Of a stretch of 64,000 bases of DNA, positions 8,813-44,653 are shown piece after piece. This stretch comes from Pseudidiomarina aquimaris (GTDB lineage: Bacteria > Pseudomonadota > Gammaproteobacteria > Enterobacterales > Alteromonadaceae). The stretch is from assembly GCF_003987395.1 (NCBI RefSeq), contig NZ_PIPT01000006.1, positions 1-64,000 of the forward strand, given 5' to 3'. How positions within the stretch are numbered: position 1 is the first letter of the stretch; each line of letters starts with the position of its first letter. The notes under the pieces are model-generated. The model was given only the letters and a program-made list of their open reading frames with translations. It ran no database searches and had not been told where the DNA came from. Both the position numbers and the translations under genes were made by a program.

Positions 8813-10174
8813 ATGCACATTCATATTTTAGGCATTTGTGGCACTTTCATGGGCGGCATTGCGGCCCTTGCAAAAGCGCTGGGCCATCATGTAACTGGCA
8901 GTGATGCCCACGTGTATCCGCCGATGAGTGATCAACTGGCTGCATTAGGTATTGATGTTTACCAAGGCTATGACGCCTCACAGCTGAATCCTCGACCTGA
9001 TTTGGTGATCATCGGTAACGTGTTGAGCCGCGGCAATGAGGCGGTAGAGGCTGTGTTAAACCAACGTATTCCTTATCGATCCGGAGCACAGTGGTTACAC
9101 GATGAGTTACTGCAGGAGAAGTGGGTGCTAGCTGTTGCGGGTACACATGGTAAAACCACTACCTCGAGCATGCTAACTTGGATTTTGGCCTATGCAGGTT
9201 ATCAACCTGGGTTTTTGGTTGGCGGCGTACTGGCTAACTTCGGCTGCTCGGCGCAGTTGGGTAATAGCGACTTCTTTGTCATTGAAGCAGATGAATACGA
9301 TACGGCGTTTTTTGATAAGCGATCGAAGTTTGTGCACTACCAGCCGTCGACACTAATTTTGAATAACCTCGAATACGACCATGCGGATATTTTCCCAGAT
9401 CTTGCCGCAATTCAAACGCAGTTTCATCACTTGGTGCGAATTATTCCTGGACATGGCCAGATTATTTATCCAGCACAGGATGACAACCTACAGGCAGTGC
9501 TGGATAAAGGCTGCTGGAGCGAGCTCAAAACGCTTGGCGGTGATTGGCAGTTTAAGCTGTTAAGTGATGACGCAACGCAGTTTGAGGTGCGTCATGGAAG
9601 TGAGAGCGTTGTAGTGGAATGGCAGGTGGTTGGCGCCCACAACGCTGCTAACGGTGTTATGGCCATCGCGGCAGCACATCATGTCGGCGTTCCGCTCGAT
9701 GTTGCGGCAGCGGCGTTGGGCGAATTTAAGAACACCAAGCGACGTCTAGAGCTGTTGGGAGAGCCTAACAAAGTCGCAGTTTACGATGATTTTGCCCATC
9801 ATCCCACAGCGATTAAACTAACGCTTGATGCCCTGCGTGCTAAAGTAGGTAAAGAGCGTATCGTCGCTGTGCTCGAGCCGCGCTCCAATACCATGAAACG
9901 TGGTGTGCATGCCGCTGAGTTGGCGCCTGCGCTGGCGTCTGCAGACGCGTGTTATCTGCTGCAACCGGAAGGGATTGAGTGGCAACTAAGCGACTACGTG
10001 CCCAATGCCAACATCAGTCATAGTGTTGATGAACTACTTGCGAAGTTGCAACGTACGTTAGCGCCACACGAGCATGTTTTAATTATGAGCAATGGCGGCT
10101 TTGGCGGTCTTCACCAGAGGCTACTTGCAGCATTAAAAGAAGCTGAGGAACTTACCCATGAGTCCACAGAATAA
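8813..10174 (+). CDS. mpl: Mpl murein peptide ligase (UDP-MurNAc:tripeptide ligase)
   Basis: Mpl (453 aa) attaches recycled L-Ala-gamma-D-Glu-meso-DAP tripeptide to UDP-MurNAc, returning cell-wall peptide to precursor synthesis. It is a Mur ligase: an N-terminal Rossmann motif [12 protein letters not shown] (distinct from MurC), the ATP loop GTHGKTTTS (110-118), the central [11 protein letters not shown] and [12 protein letters not shown], and the C-terminal [11 protein letters not shown] and [11 protein letters not shown] segments. The last 17 nt overlap ubiX, indicating coupling. Other recycling genes in the window are anmK and a degenerate amgK. Confidence 0.96.
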
Positions 10175-30804: not shown

Positions 30805-32115
30805 ATGAATTCTTACGCGGCGCATATTGCGACGGTTCAAGCACGTTTTGATGCAGCCTTGGCTGCGACCGATTTTGAGTCAGTCCTAGTCTACGCAGGA
30901 CAACCTCGAGTGGCGTTTTTAGACGACAACGCTGCGCCGTTTAAAGTGAATCCGTTATTCAAGTATTGGATCCCTGTCACAGATAGCCCGAAAAGCGCAA
31001 TTTTCTATACGCCTGGTGAACGCCCGGTGGTGTTTTTGTTCCAGCCACGTGACTTTTGGCATGCGGCGGTAAAAATTGCCCCTGCTGAGTGGCAAGAACA
31101 CGTTGAGTTAGTGGTGATTGATGAACTTGATAAGCTGACCGCTTACTTGGGTGACAAAATCAAAACGACCGCATTCCTAGGCGAAGACTTCGCTGAGCCA
31201 GTAAAGAGCTGGCCGGTGCGGGCGCGCAATCCACAACAGCTGATTGATCATCTGCACTTTCACCGTGCCTTAAAAACCGACTGGGAAATCGAGAACTTAC
31301 GCGTCGCTAACGAGCGTGCGGCGAAAGCCCACCTAGCGGCAAAAGAGGCGTTTTTTGCTGGTAAAAGCGAACTCGAGATTCATCACGCGTATTTGGCGGC
31401 AATTAACTTCCGTGAGAGCGAACTACCTTATAACAGCATCGTTGGATTGAACGAACATGGTGCGATTCTGCATTATGACGTCTACGAAACCACTGCACCT
31501 GCCGAAAGCCGCTCGTTCTTGATTGATGCTGGGGCGACCTATCGAGGCTACTGTGCAGATATCACGCGTACCTATAGTCGCAGTGAGACCGGCTTTTTTG
31601 CCGACCTAGTGAAGGCTGTAGACGCGGCTCAGCAAGAGTTATTGACTGAAATTAAGCCGGGTCTTGACTACTATCAACTGCACGTTTCGCAGCACTTGAA
31701 GATCGCGCAAATCTTGAGTGACTTCGATTTAGTGCGCGGCTCTGCTGAGAATATTTACGAGCAAGGTTTCTCAAGTGCTTTCTTCCCGCACGGTTTAGGT
31801 CATTTTATTGGTCTGCAGGTTCATGATGTCGGCGGCTTCTTACGTAACGACCGCGGTGACTTGTATGACCGTGACCCGCGTCATCCATTCTTACGTCTGC
31901 TGCGTCCGATTGAAGCCGGACAGGTGTTCACTATCGAGCCTGGTTTGTATGTCGTGGACCAACTGCTTGAAGCCCATGCCGATGCGAAAGAATTGAATTG
32001 GGAACGTATTGACGAGCTACGTCCATACGGCGGTGTGCGCATTGAAGACAGCATTGTCGTGGGTGAGAACGGTAACAACGAAAACCTTACCCGCGACGCA
32101 TTCGCCAAGCTTTAA
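30805..32115 (+). CDS. pepQ: Xaa-Pro dipeptidase (prolidase)
   Basis: PepQ (436 aa) is a pita-bread (M24) metallopeptidase that cleaves dipeptides with C-terminal proline. The metal ligands appear in FLIDAGATYRGYCADITRTYS (two Asp), FPHGLGHFIGLQVHDVGG (His), FTIEPGLY (Glu) and GGVRIEDSI (Glu). The length matches bacterial PepQ, and the family includes the Alteromonas organophosphorus acid anhydrolases. Hydrolysis of such esters is therefore possible but not shown. The stop overlaps that of anmK by 4 nt. Confidence 0.95.
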   Translation: MNSYAAHIATVQARFDAALAATDFESVLVYAGQPRVAFLDDNAAPFKVNPLFKYWIPVTDSPKSAIFYTPGERPVVFLFQPRDFWHAAVKIAPAEWQEHVELVVIDELDKLTAYLGDKIKTTAFLGEDFAEPVKSWPVRARNPQQLIDHLHFHRALKTDWEIENLRVANERAAKAHLAAKEAFFAGKSELEIHHAYLAAINFRESELPYNSIVGLNEHGAILHYDVYETTAPAESRSFLIDAGATYRGYCADITRTYSRSETGFFADLVKAVDAAQQELLTEIKPGLDYYQLHVSQHLKIAQILSDFDLVRGSAENIYEQGFSSAFFPHGLGHFIGLQVHDVGGFLRNDRGDLYDRDPRHPFLRLLRPIEAGQVFTIEPGLYVVDQLLEAHADAKELNWERIDELRPYGGVRIEDSIVVGENGNNENLTRDAFAKL

Positions 32116-33260
32116 GGAAGGAAAAGCCCACCAAGGACTGTGGCGCGGCTGGCGCCCGTCACACTTGGTAGATTGCCCGGCTGGCGCTGCATAAATTGAC
32201 GTGCTAGCCAGGCAAAAGCCATAGCTTCTAAATGCTGCGGGTCAACGCCCAGCTCGGCGACGGAATGCCAACTGGCCTGCGGATAGTTACGCGCTAAGCG
32301 TTGTATTAAGTCGTCGTTAAAGGCGCCACCACCTGCCACATAGACCTTCGAGATTGCTCCCAAATCTGCGGCTTTTAGGCATTGCTGTAAGCCATGCGCA
32401 ACCGACTGTGCGGTGAACTCAGCAAGCGTCGCTTGTAAGTCGGCGCCGTGCCAGTGGGGGAGCTGCTCTAGATAATCCTCTAGCCAACTCTGATTAAAGT
32501 ATTCGCGCCCCGTGCTTTTCGGCGGTGTCTGCTGAATATAGGGGTCTTGCATAAACTTGGCCAACAGCCGTGGGTTCACGTCACCACTAGCCGCATAGGC
32601 ACCGTTGCGGTCAAAGCTATCGGCGGCATCGGGATGTTGCAGTTGGTACCATAGGTCAAGCAAGGTGTTGGCAGGGCCGGTATCAAAGCCCAACACCTCT
32701 GTTGAATTAGCTGGTAACACGGAAATATTGGCGATACCGCCCAGATTCAGAATAGCTAGTGCCTCTGCTGCTTTTGCGTGTTGCCGAAAAAGCGCATCGT
32801 GAAACGCCGGAACCAGTGGCGCCCCCTGCCCACCGAGTGCGATATCTTTGCGTCTAAAATCGGCGACCACCGGAATACCAGTCAGCGCTGCAATGGTATT
32901 AGGATCGCCAAGTTGGACCGTATAGGCTGAGATTGCATCTGGCATATGGCGTACGGTCTGGCCATGGCTGCCGATCGCCTTTATGCTGTCGGCCTTGTAG
33001 CCAGTCGCTTGTAATAATGCCAAGACAAGCTCTGCAGAGAGTTCAGCGAACTGCCGATCGGCCAGTGCAAGCCGGTGCAGCTCATTGGCGCCAGGACTAC
33101 ATAGGTTGAGTAGTTCACTGCGGAGTGGCTCGCCAAGAGGAGTATCGAGGTGTTTAATAAGGCGCGGCTGGCCCGTTTGAAAATCCACCAGCACGGCATC
33201 AAGTGCGTCCATGCTGGTGCCTGACATTAGCCCGATATAGAGTTCTGGTTGGGACGCCAT
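32112..33260 (-). CDS. anmK: Anhydro-N-acetylmuramic acid kinase
   Basis: AnmK (382 aa) phosphorylates 1,6-anhydroMurNAc from muropeptide turnover to MurNAc-6-phosphate. Visible family marks are YIGLMSGTSMDALDAVLV at the N-terminus, IGSHGQTVRH, DFRRKDIALGGQGAPLVPAFH, ILNLGGIANI and FDTGPANTLLD. It sits downstream of an M23 endopeptidase gene with an 8-nt gap, so the two are probably cotranscribed and linked in cell-wall turnover. Confidence 0.96.
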   Translation of the reverse strand: MASQPELYIGLMSGTSMDALDAVLVDFQTGQPRLIKHLDTPLGEPLRSELLNLCSPGANELHRLALADRQFAELSAELVLALLQATGYKADSIKAIGSHGQTVRHMPDAISAYTVQLGDPNTIAALTGIPVVADFRRKDIALGGQGAPLVPAFHDALFRQHAKAAEALAILNLGGIANISVLPANSTEVLGFDTGPANTLLDLWYQLQHPDAADSFDRNGAYAASGDVNPRLLAKFMQDPYIQQTPPKSTGREYFNQSWLEDYLEQLPHWHGADLQATLAEFTAQSVAHGLQQCLKAADLGAISKVYVAGGGAFNDDLIQRLARNYPQASWHSVAELGVDPQHLEAMAFAWLARQFMQRQPGNLPSVTGASRATVLGGLFLP

Positions 33261-40422: not shown

Positions 40423-42714
40423 CTAGTTGCTTAAGTAAAACGGGTGGCGATAACCGAACAGGCTCTGTTCAATCAGTTCAAACAGGTTACTGTTATCGGA
40501 CCCTAGCCCCTTAATAATAAATTGTACACTGACGCCTGTATCGAACTCTGGTTGCCGATTCATCGGGTCAGTTGCTTGTAATTCTAAGTTTCGGTTGATA
40601 CGTCGGTAAGCACTCACCCGTATCGCCCAACAACAATCGTTGTACTGTAACGCAAGAAGCGCGTCGTTGGTACGTTTCTGTTCAAGATCATAAAACCAGT
40701 TTGCGGCGACTTGCCAGTTGGCTTTCACTTGATAGACCGTCTGTAAGCCTAATTGTTCGATGTCGTCATTAAGAATATTTGTAACTTGTCGATGACTGAA
40801 CTGGATAAGGTTGCTCTCATCGATGCGATATTCAACCGCAGTCTGACTTTTGCGGGTGTTATTTTGCTCCATGTCGTATTGCATGGCAGCATTTAAGAAT
40901 AAGCGGTCGTTAAAACGAAAGCGCGTTTCGAAGGCAAGGTCAGAGCGATCGTCGGCAATCTGACTGTTTTCGTCAAATAAGCTCACTCGGCTATCGTCAA
41001 AATAGTAAATTTGTCCGGCACTAAAACGTACCATTTCTCGTGCATTTTCGTTAAAGATGCTGGTTGAGGCACCAATGGTGACTTGATTGGCATCGGCGAT
41101 GCGGTCAAGCCCCGAAAAGCGTCTTGCACGGAATAAACCTTGATAGTCATCCTGCATCAATGTCGAATCGTAAATGCCAATATCGGACTGGTCGCGATAG
41201 GGCACATACAGATATTGAATCTGTGGTTGTAAGGTCTGCTGATAGGTTTGGTCGCCCCAAGCGAAATCGCGCTCGAGATTCAACCGTCCACGTAGCCGAA
41301 ATTGTGGAATGCTACGCGATGGATTTTCGCTGAGCGTCGTATTATTGAAGCTACTCGAGGCGGCTTGGTCATAATAGGTGTAGCTGTAGCGCAACTCACT
41401 CAATACATCATAGGCTGGCTTTTCATAGGCGAACTTGACGGCCGGCTCAATGTGAAAACGCGTGGCATAATCATTACTGTTATCTTGGTTACGAAAATGC
41501 GTTAATTCTGAGAAAAGATTTACTTCAAGAGCAGGCGAATCCTGCCAATTAAAAAATGTCGTCAATTGCGGAGTGGTTCGATACGGCGAACGATAATCAC
41601 CCAGAATTTCAAAATCCTCAGCGCGCAGCATAACTTGCGCATTGTCGGTGTGGTAATCAACGCGGGCGTGGCGATAGAGTTGGGCATCGGCTCGACCGGC
41701 GAATTGGCTGCCCAAATCGTTGAGGTAGTCGTCGTCACTGATGTCGAGAATATTGACATAAGAACGCCAGCTAGGGCTCCAACTTTGCTCATGTTCAACA
41801 CGCCAAAGATAACGTGAGGCGTCGCTTTCTAAGCTGTCGTCGTTATCGAGGTAGGCGAGGTTTACTTGGCCTGACCCACCCTCGGTTAGAGTGCGATACT
41901 CGGCTTTCATCTGCAGCCCTCGTTCAGCCATGTAGCGAGGTGTTAGAGTGGCATCCTGATTGGGCGCGATGTTGATGTAGTAGGGGAGCTCAAACTCGAA
42001 ACCATTTTTTTGTGACGAGCGCACGGTTGGGAATAAAAAACCCGATTTGCGTTCATCGGTAATCGGAAAATTAATATAGGGCACATAGAGCACTGGGACC
42101 CCAAACAGCTCAAACTTCGCATGCCAAGCTTCGCCCCACGCTTCATCTTCGCTTAAATTAATTTCATCGGCGCTTAGTTGCCACGCAGGTTGATCTGTAG
42201 GACAGGTCGTGAACGTCGAGCCGGCTAACAACACTTGCTCGGGTGAAATAGAAAGTAACTCAGCAGTGCCGTGCGCTCCAGTTGTCTGCAGCTGATATTG
42301 CGCACCCGCAAGGTAGGCACGGTTATCTCCTGAATTGAGCCGAAAGTTGTCACTACTCACCTGCACGTAGCCATCGGTGAATTGGGTCGCACCACTGGCG
42401 TTTATATTTCCCGAGGCTTGATTAACCGTCGCTTGCTCAGTGAAGAGAAACTGATCGTTAAGTTGAACTTGTACGTTGCCGGTAAATGATGCCAGAGTAG
42501 TCTCAGAATCAATGTCTGCTGCATCGGCACGCACGCCAATGGCTTCTGGTGCTAAATCTTTAATTGGGTTTAACTTAGTCGTGGCAAAAAGCGGTGAGCG
42601 CACAGGGCATTGCTGCAGAAAGTCTGTATTGTCTTGAGCTACCGCACTGTTGGTGAAACCCACCGTAAGCGCGAAACTGATGCCCAAGCAGGCTCCTTTG
42701 GTAATGTTATGCAT
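40423..42714 (-). CDS. lptD: LPS-assembly protein LptD
   Basis: LptD (763 aa) forms the outer-membrane barrel that inserts LPS at the cell surface with LptE. After a signal peptide (to about residue 26, AVAQ) come an LptA-like jellyroll (about 55-190) and a 26-strand barrel with conserved VPYINFPITDERKSGFLFP. The four cysteines of the essential disulfides are all present: one near the mature N-terminus (FLQQCPVRS), one after the jellyroll (TFTTCPTDQP) and the C-terminal pair (NDCCWAIR). It is the first gene of the apaH operon and is divergent from the amgK-like gene. Confidence 0.96.
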   Translation of the reverse strand: MHNITKGACLGISFALTVGFTNSAVAQDNTDFLQQCPVRSPLFATTKLNPIKDLAPEAIGVRADAADIDSETTLASFTGNVQVQLNDQFLFTEQATVNQASGNINASGATQFTDGYVQVSSDNFRLNSGDNRAYLAGAQYQLQTTGAHGTAELLSISPEQVLLAGSTFTTCPTDQPAWQLSADEINLSEDEAWGEAWHAKFELFGVPVLYVPYINFPITDERKSGFLFPTVRSSQKNGFEFELPYYINIAPNQDATLTPRYMAERGLQMKAEYRTLTEGGSGQVNLAYLDNDDSLESDASRYLWRVEHEQSWSPSWRSYVNILDISDDDYLNDLGSQFAGRADAQLYRHARVDYHTDNAQVMLRAEDFEILGDYRSPYRTTPQLTTFFNWQDSPALEVNLFSELTHFRNQDNSNDYATRFHIEPAVKFAYEKPAYDVLSELRYSYTYYDQAASSSFNNTTLSENPSRSIPQFRLRGRLNLERDFAWGDQTYQQTLQPQIQYLYVPYRDQSDIGIYDSTLMQDDYQGLFRARRFSGLDRIADANQVTIGASTSIFNENAREMVRFSAGQIYYFDDSRVSLFDENSQIADDRSDLAFETRFRFNDRLFLNAAMQYDMEQNNTRKSQTAVEYRIDESNLIQFSHRQVTNILNDDIEQLGLQTVYQVKANWQVAANWFYDLEQKRTNDALLALQYNDCCWAIRVSAYRRINRNLELQATDPMNRQPEFDTGVSVQFIIKGLGSDNSNLFELIEQSLFGYRHPFYLSN

Positions 42715-42804
42715 GCGATAGCTGACTCAACGTTGTCCTTTCCAATGTGGAAGGTATGATAAAGCAAAATAACTAAGCCTGCCATTTGTGAGCGAGGAAA
42801 TAGC

Positions 42805-43806
42805 GTGGAAAATAAGCGAGAAGTGCAATTGCAAGCTTGGTGCGAGTCTGTCACCGGGCAGCCGCAGCAAGATTTGCAGCCGGTTTTCGGTGATGCGCGA
42901 CCGTGGCGTTATTACCGTGTGACTGATGGTGTGCGAAGCTTTATCGCGGTCGACACGCAGAATACTGAGCAAGCGTTACGCAGTTACATGGCGGTGGCCG
43001 ACAGCTATAAGTCGCGTGGAGTTTTAGTGCCTGAGTTGGTGGCCGTGCATGAGCAGCGTGGTTTTATGTTAATGACGGATTTGGGCTCCAGCTTGCTCTT
43101 GAGTCATTTGAGTGAGGCGACACTCACCGACTGGTACCCGCAAGTCTATCCGCATCTTGCCAACATCATGCAGGTACAAGATTCTGAATTAGGGGCGTTG
43201 CCATCTTTCGCTGAGCAAGAACTTCGCGCTGAATTGGAACTCATGGCCCAGTGGCTACTCAAAGAGCACTTACAGCTACAACTCACAGCCAGCGAACAAG
43301 ATCTATGGCAGGGGTTTTGTGACCGCCTCGTCGACAATGCACAAGCGCAACCGCAGGTGGGAGTACACCGCAAACTGCACGCGCGAAATATTTTGGTGCA
43401 GGGCGAGGGTCAATTGGCCTTTACTGGCTTTCATGATGCCGCAATAGGGCCGATTACTTATGATGCGGTAAGTTTACTGCGTGACTGTTATGTGCGCTGG
43501 CCACAAACACAAGTCCAGCAGTTGGCGACAGACTGTTACGATTATTTGCGCGACATCCGCAATGATTTGCAGGTTGACCGGGCCACCTGGCAACGTTGGT
43601 TTGATTTAATGGGGATGCAACGTCACTGTTATGTAAGTGGGCTTTTCGCTCGCCGCTACGAACGTGATGGCAATCCTGGCTATTTACAAGATATTCCGCG
43701 AAATTTGGCCTATCTCCACGATATTGCGGCTATCTACGCGGAGTTCGACGATTTTCGTGCGTTTTTGACAGAGCGTGTCATGCCGGCTTTTGCCCAAAGT
43801 AAGTAG
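42805..43806 (+). CDS. AmgK-like phosphotransferase with degenerate active site
   Basis: This 333-aa protein of the AmgK/APH fold is related to the MurNAc/GlcNAc anomeric kinase. The fold-level match is good: RPWRYYRVT, a VPELVAVHEQRGFMLMTDLGSS hinge, and AAIGPITYDAVSLLRDCYVRW. However, the catalytic motif H-x-D-x4-N reads HRKLHARN, with Lys190 (codon 43372-43374) for the catalytic Asp, and the DFQDA metal motif reads GFHDA, with Gly208 for the metal Asp. No murU follows: djlA is next. It is probably a pseudokinase or repurposed protein. The start is GTG with a GAGG site. Confidence 0.85.
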   Translation: MENKREVQLQAWCESVTGQPQQDLQPVFGDARPWRYYRVTDGVRSFIAVDTQNTEQALRSYMAVADSYKSRGVLVPELVAVHEQRGFMLMTDLGSSLLLSHLSEATLTDWYPQVYPHLANIMQVQDSELGALPSFAEQELRAELELMAQWLLKEHLQLQLTASEQDLWQGFCDRLVDNAQAQPQVGVHRKLHARNILVQGEGQLAFTGFHDAAIGPITYDAVSLLRDCYVRWPQTQVQQLATDCYDYLRDIRNDLQVDRATWQRWFDLMGMQRHCYVSGLFARRYERDGNPGYLQDIPRNLAYLHDIAAIYAEFDDFRAFLTERVMPAFAQSK

Positions 43807-43846: not shown

Positions 43847-44653
43847 ATGATTTGGGGTAAAGTGCTGGGTGGCTTTTTTGGTTTTATGTTGCTGCGCTGG
43901 CCAGGAATTTTCTTAGGCGTTTTGATTGGTCATTGGTTCGATAAAGCGCTCGAGCAGAACATGCGTCAAGGTGGCGGCGCCGCGATGCAAAAGTCGTTTA
44001 TTGATACTTTATTTGCGGTGCTGGGCCACTTGGCGAAATCCAAGGGGCGTGTTACCGAGCAAGATATCAATTATGTTTCGGCTCTCATGCAGCACCTAAA
44101 ATTGGATGAATCAGCCAAGTCGCAAGCGCAGGCAGCATTTCGTGAGGGGAAGAACGCTGACTATCCACTTGTCAGCAAAGTTTCGGAATTCCGTCGTCAG
44201 GTGGGTTGGCGCAAAGACCTCCTGCAAATTTTCATTGAGCAAATTCTGGTTGTTGCGCTGCACGATGGCAAACTTGAACAAGCGGAATATGACGTGCTCT
44301 TGCGTGTCACCCAAGCGCTTGGTTTTCGCCGTGCACAATTGGATATGTGGCTGCAAATGGCGCAAGCGGGGCAGCGATTTCGTGGCGGGCAAGGCGGCGG
44401 TGGCTACCAAGGTAGTGCAACGCAAAGCCCTAGCGAACGCCTAGATGATGCTTATGCCATTCTTGGGGTCACGCGACAAGCAAGCTTTGCGGAGGTGAAG
44501 AAAGCCTATCGTAAACTCATGGCGAAACACCATCCAGATAAACTCGCCGCGCAAGGTTTACCGCCTGAGATGCGCGAGTCTGCCCAAGAAAAAGCACAAG
44601 AAATTCAAGCAGCTTACGAACTTATTAAAAGTCAGCAGGGCAATGGAAATTAA
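43847..44653 (+). CDS. djlA: Membrane-anchored J-domain co-chaperone DjlA
   Basis: DjlA (268 aa) is a DnaK co-chaperone of the inner membrane. It has an N-terminal transmembrane segment (about 4-28), a TerB-like helical domain (about 45-175), a Gly/Gln-rich linker and a C-terminal J domain with the HPD motif in AKHHPDKL. AGGAG precedes the ATG. It is probably cotranscribed with the amgK-like gene, and its last 29 nt overlap rluA tail to tail. Confidence 0.95.
   Translation: MIWGKVLGGFFGFMLLRWPGIFLGVLIGHWFDKALEQNMRQGGGAAMQKSFIDTLFAVLGHLAKSKGRVTEQDINYVSALMQHLKLDESAKSQAQAAFREGKNADYPLVSKVSEFRRQVGWRKDLLQIFIEQILVVALHDGKLEQAEYDVLLRVTQALGFRRAQLDMWLQMAQAGQRFRGGQGGGGYQGSATQSPSERLDDAYAILGVTRQASFAEVKKAYRKLMAKHHPDKLAAQGLPPEMRESAQEKAQEIQAAYELIKSQQGNGN

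Follow-up and report, generated by a model that had tools for sequence, protein, structure and literature searches.

The gene at positions 42805-43806 on the forward strand of the window, by which we mean the whole stretch of 64,000 nucleotides of Pseudidiomarina DNA that was analysed, probably encodes a pseudokinase which is derived from AmgK and is kept for some non-catalytic role. It starts with GTG and forms one open frame of 333 aa. By its position and by alignment over the full length, the protein is an AmgK orthologue. As read in the nucleotide sequence, the AAA codon at 43372-43374 (+) specifies Lys190 in place of the catalytic aspartate of the H-x-D-x4-N motif, and the GGC codon at 43426-43428 (+) specifies Gly208 in place of the metal-binding aspartate, by which DFQDA becomes GFHDA; the corresponding motifs of the window protein are VHRKLHARN and TGFHDAA. 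Lysine and glycine occur at these positions in all nine members of one clade of the genus, and aspartate at both in all 14 other genus genomes with the gene; these forms are referred to below as K/G and D/D. A sequence-only reading of the DNA had described an AmgK/APH-like protein with these two residues and was right in this, as the codons and a match to the Pfam family APH (PF01636; 61.7 bits at a cut-off of 23.2) demonstrate.

The top NCBIfam match of the window protein is the AmgK model NF045759, with 186.4 bits at a cut-off of 550. As a control, four D/D orthologues from the genus reached 254-280 bits, and four K/G proteins including that of the window 186-210 bits. Since the D/D orthologues also stay below 550, the cut-off is uninformative here for distinguishing live from dead proteins, and it was dropped as a sign of inactivity. 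The homologue is present as a single copy in the window's genome, and a second AmgK copy which could have taken over was not found there; 22 of the 23 genus genomes with a match have it in a single place. The exception, G132, probably holds one gene split by two contig ends.

A homologue of amgK was found in 74 of the 118 genomes of the GTDB family. Both motif positions are aspartate in 72 of these homologues, the two exceptions being the window's genome and G102. Within Pseudidiomarina, which is placed in the Idiomarinaceae (Gammaproteobacteria), 23 of 26 genomes harbor the homologue, nine in the K/G form and 14 in the D/D form. The K/G genomes, with HRK and GFH, comprise the window's own and eight whose proteins are 69-87% identical to the window protein; those with HRD and DFQ encode proteins which are 47-55% identical to it. 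Named records of K/G carriers are Pseudidiomarina sp. CB1, P. atlantica, P. sediminum, P. insulisalsae, P. piscicola, P. halophila and P. terrestris, and those of D/D carriers include P. gelatinasegens, P. tainanensis, P. donghaiensis, P. marina, P. woesei, P. aestuarii, P. indica, P. taiwanensis and Idiomarina loihiensis. Altogether, 80 named loci were kept: 66 D/D with murU in the locus, seven D/D without it and seven K/G without it.

The nine K/G genomes are monophyletic, with a support of 1.0, in a FastTree phylogeny of 14 flanking genes. Sequencing error or a strain-specific pseudogene is ruled out by the presence of both substitutions in 9/9 clade genomes, seven of them also as named records. 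Nor is the K/G form a common variant: among 394 genomes from the order, a sample which held only one other member of the genus, a DNA pattern of the HRK type occurred in the window's genome alone; this pattern detects HRK only and no other losses of the aspartate. The check for conservation in related genomes that the sequence-only reading had proposed thus found both residues conserved throughout the clade and the 14 other genomes D/D. Close relatives with restored aspartates, which that reading had named as evidence against itself, are absent from the nine-genome clade and present in the rest of the genus; its suggestion that activity was lost only recently did not hold, given the fixation of both residues in 9/9 genomes and an omega of 0.089 (see below). 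In the wider family, the second aspartate of the DFQDA motif is not invariant: five D/D homologues (L040, L063, L068, L070 and L074) have DFQGG, DFQGA or DYQGA in its place. The AmgK match in G059 (L019) was reported with one in-frame TGA, yet a long open frame is present there.

The loss of the aspartates coincides with the loss of the partner gene. The gene order is amgK - murU - djlA in 14/14 D/D genomes of the genus and amgK - djlA in 9/9 K/G genomes. In the window, djlA (43847-44653, +; DjlA NF006948 with 321 bits at a cut-off of 162) lies directly downstream, as in the whole clade, and no murU adjoins the gene, just as the sequence-only reading had it. A genome-wide search with a Pseudidiomarina MurU, a check which that reading had also proposed, detected one stretch of 24.8 bits and no orthologue in the window's genome. 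Across the genus, the same search gave 291-507 bits in the 14 D/D genomes, and a murU elsewhere in the K/G genomes was not found, the best stretch in the nine reaching 48.9 bits vs at least 291 in the 14. Among the fetched amgK loci of the family, 72 of 74 contain murU, and only those of the two K/G genomes lack it.

According to the accessible part of a published survey (PMC5371407), beta- and gammaproteobacteria use either MurQ or AmgK-MurU. In Pseudidiomarina, MurQ exceeds its cut-off in 12 of 26 genomes, namely in 9/9 K/G genomes, in 3/3 genomes without an amgK match and in 0/14 D/D genomes; weak matches of up to 32.4 bits occur in all 26 and probably represent other SIS-domain proteins. 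This distribution indicates that the K/G lineage has switched from anabolic recycling by AmgK-MurU to catabolic recycling by MurQ. MurQ alone is insufficient as the cause of the loss: of the 11 family genomes in which MurQ and AmgK occur together, nine retain the D/D form and murU. AnmK, the maker of the MurNAc-6-P that MurQ would use, is found in 26/26 genus genomes whichever recycling route is present. In the window, anmK is located at 32112-33260 (-; NF007139, 485 bits, cut-off 367) and the muropeptide ligase gene mpl at 8813-10174 (+; TIGR01081, 701 bits, cut-off 388.7). The proposal that recycling goes through AnmK and Mpl was correct as to the presence of both genes, but the genome also has a MurQ cluster outside the window, and AnmK does not distinguish the routes.

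The MurQ of the window's genome (TIGR00274, 419.6 bits, cut-off 302) is encoded in a MurNAc catabolic cluster at L183:164-15108 (G000:C20:42000-58000). The cluster begins with a NagZ-like hydrolase scoring just under the cut-off, an M14-type peptidase, an FAD/FeS oxidoreductase and an RpiR/MurR-type regulator, continues with NamZ, MurQ, a sodium:solute symporter and a protein without a Pfam match, and ends with a NagK-like kinase (under the cut-off), NagB-II and NagA. The regulator adjoining murQ shows the Pfam domains HTH_6 and SIS and falls short of the cut-offs set for the named NCBIfam models. NamZ is an exo-muramidase and the symporter is a candidate MurNAc transporter; the oxidoreductase, which judging from its Pfam domains is probably related to D-lactate dehydrogenases, may consume the D-lactate that MurQ releases. 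A MupP/Gph-like phosphatase, whose loss might have been a further sign of the switch, was also sought in seven genomes (loci L189-L194): it was detected in the MurQ genomes G000, G131 and G026 and in the D/D genomes G120, G121 and G136, was not found in G102, and stayed under the MupP cut-off in all four genomes scanned.

A second group of Pseudidiomarina with MurQ comprises three genomes without an amgK match (G026, G133 and G135). In G026 (L187) and G135 (L188), lptD and djlA adjoin with no gene-sized frame between them; the contig of G133 does not cover this place, and G133 and G135 are incomplete genomes. By eye, the open frames around murQ in G026 follow the same order as in the window's genome, apart from the M14-type frame, which did not show up. 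This second lineage deleted amgK-murU, apparently independently. Forcing the nine K/G and the three gene-less genomes into one clade costs 70 lnL, a plain likelihood difference from data in which G133 is represented by some of the genes only, and a single origin of both MurQ lineages was rejected on this result; two switches to MurQ, or a transfer of the cluster, are likelier. With the gene missing in three genomes that have MurQ, the role of the pseudokinase is thus dispensable in the genus.

The changes in the K/G protein extend well beyond the two aspartates. At 19 positions, the residue is invariant within the K/G group and within the D/D group, yet different between them: S28F, S32R, F33P, R34W, F37Y, A51T, P53N, F61Y, A114V, D190K, M197L, I207T, D208G, Q210H, K276Y, I280L, L284R, K290N and T300N. 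Twelve of the 19 lie in the glycine-rich, beta3, catalytic and metal loops (Fisher p = 8e-5), a value which is indicative only, the four active-site segments having been drawn after the site list was seen. The glycine-rich (P-) loop at residues 28-37 (42886-42915, +), with S28F, S32R, F33P, R34W and F37Y, has been rewritten from GDASFRRY to GDARPWRY (GDGRPWRY in one member), and the beta3 loop at residues 51-53 (42955-42963, +) has changed from APP to TxN, that is, from VDAPP to VDTxN or IDTxN. A C-terminal helical segment (43630-43704, +) carries the clade-fixed changes K276Y, I280L, L284R, K290N and T300N. The 48 D/D relatives share 47 invariant positions, of which all eight K/G rows aligned retain 40; R34, P52, D190, D208, Q210 and K276 are changed in all eight, and A31 is mixed. 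Lys276, invariant in 48/48 aligned D/D relatives, is tyrosine in the clade.

The APH fold of the protein is predicted to be intact and kinase-like. The AF2 model of the window protein has a pLDDT of 94.2 and a pTM of 0.91, and a D/D orthologue was modelled with a pLDDT of 95.3. Compared with the D/D model, the K/G model shows a break in strand 25-31, and its helix following beta3 begins at residue 55 rather than 59, four residues earlier. The structural alignments included, next to the window, 55 of the 80 named loci in one case, and 42 of the 80 in the other. In a Foldseek search, the best PDB match was 3csv with a TM score of 0.72, and the next matches include APH(2''), methylthioribose kinase and choline/ethanolamine kinases.

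In APH(3')-IIIa, as far as the accessible text of PMC3691515 goes, the aspartate matching Asp190 is essential, and the counterparts of Asp208 and Asn195 hold magnesium. The loss of both aspartates alone does not prove that all catalysis has ceased, and the pocket could have been rebuilt for another chemistry or another phosphotransfer in which Lys190 is functional. What the old pocket residues were replaced by is fixed (K190, G208, H210, R32-P33-W34, T51, N53, Y276, R284 and N290), invariant in nine sequences which are 69-100% identical to that of the window, and some enzymes with the kinase fold dispense with otherwise invariant residues, HSK2 lacking the beta3 lysine and the C-helix glutamate (PMC4702295, in the portion available). 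We nevertheless regard such a new activity as unlikely, for the catalytic and the magnesium-binding aspartate are both gone, and the K/G proteins have kept Asn195 and fixed no new acidic residue in either the catalytic or the metal loop.

An older binding or structural role would explain the retention differently. If AmgK already had such a moonlighting role before the switch, this role might have saved the protein once the kinase reaction had become useless or harmful without MurU. Like reasoning has been published for spore-associated CAK proteins, the BSKs (PMC2860764, seen in part), and the 40 of 47 family-invariant positions which are kept would agree with it. Twelve of the 19 changed sites, however, fall into the active-site loops, a pattern more suggestive of a new mode of binding than of an old one, and the second MurQ clade discarded the whole gene; we consider a role of this age rather doubtful.

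Selection on the protein was analysed with an author-written codon model of the GY94 type (F3x4, branch classes) on the nine K/G sequences together with 13 of the 14 from D/D genomes, L090 from G132, which is cut by a contig end, being left out of this and of the type II analysis. Omega is 0.089 in the K/G clade vs 0.081 in the background, and the two are not different, equal omegas costing 0.46 lnL (2 x delta lnL = 0.92); a clade omega of 1 is rejected, being about 647 lnL worse. The sequence-only reading had inferred selection on the gene and asked for dN/dS, and these values bear out purifying selection. Together with the fixation of lysine and glycine in 9/9 genomes, they also lend support to its suggestion that the protein is a pseudokinase and not a working AmgK. 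Pairwise omega of the gene is 0.042-0.094 in seven K/G pairs, six of which show a dS greater than 1; in the same pairs the neighbours are held more tightly, with 0.012-0.040 for djlA and 0.028-0.062 for lptD. For djlA, omega is lower inside the clade than outside (0.050 vs 0.075), a drop which amgK does not share. There is no stop within the match in any of the nine genomes, and 159 of 332 positions are invariant in the clade.

The stem branch of the AmgK protein is about 3.9 times as long as expected, with a stem-to-rest ratio of 0.225 vs 0.058 for 14 flanking genes, and within the K/G clade the protein evolved about 1.6 times as fast as expected from these genes (0.580 vs 0.356). There was thus excess change on the stem, followed by strong constraint which is by some measures looser than that on the live enzyme. 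Omega on the stem is about 1.16 for amgK; for djlA and lptD it runs to the upper bound, which indicates saturation and makes the stem omega of amgK unreliable, and positive selection on the stem is not claimed. A slowly decaying relic, useless since the loss of murU and persisting as the first gene in a unit with djlA, would account for the loss of murU and catalysis on the same branch, for the faster protein evolution and weaker constraint than in the neighbours and for the deletion of the whole gene in the second lineage, but it is very improbable in view of the rejection of omega = 1 by 647 lnL with a clade omega equal to the background, the lack of stops in 9/9 genomes despite dS above 1 in six of seven pairs and the 159 of 332 invariant positions, a spacer role being one that would not keep an amino-acid sequence.

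Upstream of the gene lies the divergently transcribed lptD (40423-42714, -; PF04453, 323.7 bits, cut-off 22.4), and the 52 nt before the start codon form an unusually conserved promoter/leader (42753-42804, +) in which 43 of 52 nt are invariant in the nine K/G species, compared with one of the 59 fourfold sites of the gene itself. The divergent lptD promoter could equally account for this conservation. A search for RNA structure in the leader found none (z 1.40). Where sequence covers the region, a similar TATGATAAAGCAA core also occurs in the D/D members, whose leader is often longer. The gene inherited its place between lptD and djlA from the active amgK-murU pair, and the neighbourhood is thus no evidence for a new role; the link to the LPS assembly operon that the sequence-only reading had drawn is unsupported so far.

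The reading that we favour, a pseudokinase kept for a non-catalytic role, rests on the following course of events. The common ancestor of the nine Pseudidiomarina species changed its MurNAc recycling from AmgK-MurU, the salvage of UDP-MurNAc, to MurQ, the cleavage of MurNAc-6-P. As the comparison shows, the gene murU disappeared, and AmgK was deprived in the same lineage of its catalytic aspartate, its metal-binding aspartate and several other family-invariant positions. Without MurU, the kinase would yield only dead-end MurNAc-1-phosphate, which would render its activity useless or costly, and the protein would have retained or acquired a non-catalytic task. The protein has since been under strong purifying selection, roughly equal to that on the live orthologues, and its pocket has a new, fixed sequence. 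The present protein is predicted to have an APH-type fold, to be unable to transfer phosphate and to act non-catalytically. With Asp208 and Asp190 lost and Lys190 and Arg32 gained, the former Mg-ATP site may have become a metal-free, positively charged pocket, which would bind either a protein segment or an anionic ligand such as a nucleotide or phosphosugar; the protein could act as a ligand-gated adaptor or regulator. A more specific version, to which we give little weight, is that a former metabolic kinase has turned into a sensor or regulator whose metal-free Lys190 pocket would recognise a phosphosugar or nucleotide of peptidoglycan origin and signal its presence to a partner in the envelope or among the chaperones, for example in the LptD/DjlA neighbourhood.

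Compared with known systems, the protein resembles AmgK (NF045759) in the position lptD - amgK - [murU] - djlA, in length, fold and alignment and in 40 of 47 invariant positions, with an identity of 47-56% to D/D AmgK proteins of the genus. It differs from AmgK in the replacement of both aspartates by lysine and glycine, in the rewritten P-loop and beta3 loop, in the exchange of Lys276 for tyrosine and in the lack of murU from the genome. On these sequence comparisons it is an AmgK by descent in which the meaningful marks of a functional AmgK, both aspartates and a MurU, were found to be missing. The closest solved structure by sequence (E 2.6e-15) as well as by fold (TM 0.72) is 3csv, a putative aminoglycoside phosphotransferase of Silicibacter sp. 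TM1040, which unlike the window protein has an intact HRDFHAQN and the metal-loop aspartate. The MurQ route of the window's genome shares MurQ, AnmK and an RpiR/MurR-type regulator beside murQ with the E. coli type; in contrast to the latter, its cluster adds NamZ, the sodium:solute symporter, NagB-II, the NagK-like kinase and the FAD/FeS oxidoreductase, and a remnant of AmgK is kept.

Gammaproteobacteria such as Idiomarinaceae are not known to make endospores. The BSKs, which are spore-associated proteins of spore formers, share with the K/G proteins the APH/CAK fold, the loss of the catalytic aspartate, the retention of fold residues and an inactivity inferred from comparison only; according to the accessible part of PMC2860764, their activity is predicted to have been lost more than once, and a main non-catalytic function has been proposed. 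The present case differs in that the ancestor was a housekeeping recycling enzyme and that the loss coincides with a pathway switch. No report on an AmgK pseudokinase, an inactive AmgK or peptidoglycan recycling in Pseudidiomarina was found in the open-access literature searched, subscription papers being outside the scope of the search; the available part of PMC13046382 applies the term "catalytically inactive" to AmiR and NagZ.

The origins of pseudoenzymes are usually reconstructed from deep and blurred events, whereas here the event lies within one genus. The same genus offers active-looking sister proteins, a lost partner gene, an identified replacing pathway and a second switched lineage without the gene, which opens the sequence of events, and the non-catalytic function under selection, to direct testing. 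For the annotation of recycling pathways, the presence of AmgK does not equal a working salvage of UDP-MurNAc unless the aspartates and murU are checked. If the protein has indeed become a sensor or regulator, Pseudidiomarina would provide a datable conversion of an enzyme into a regulator, driven by a pathway switch.
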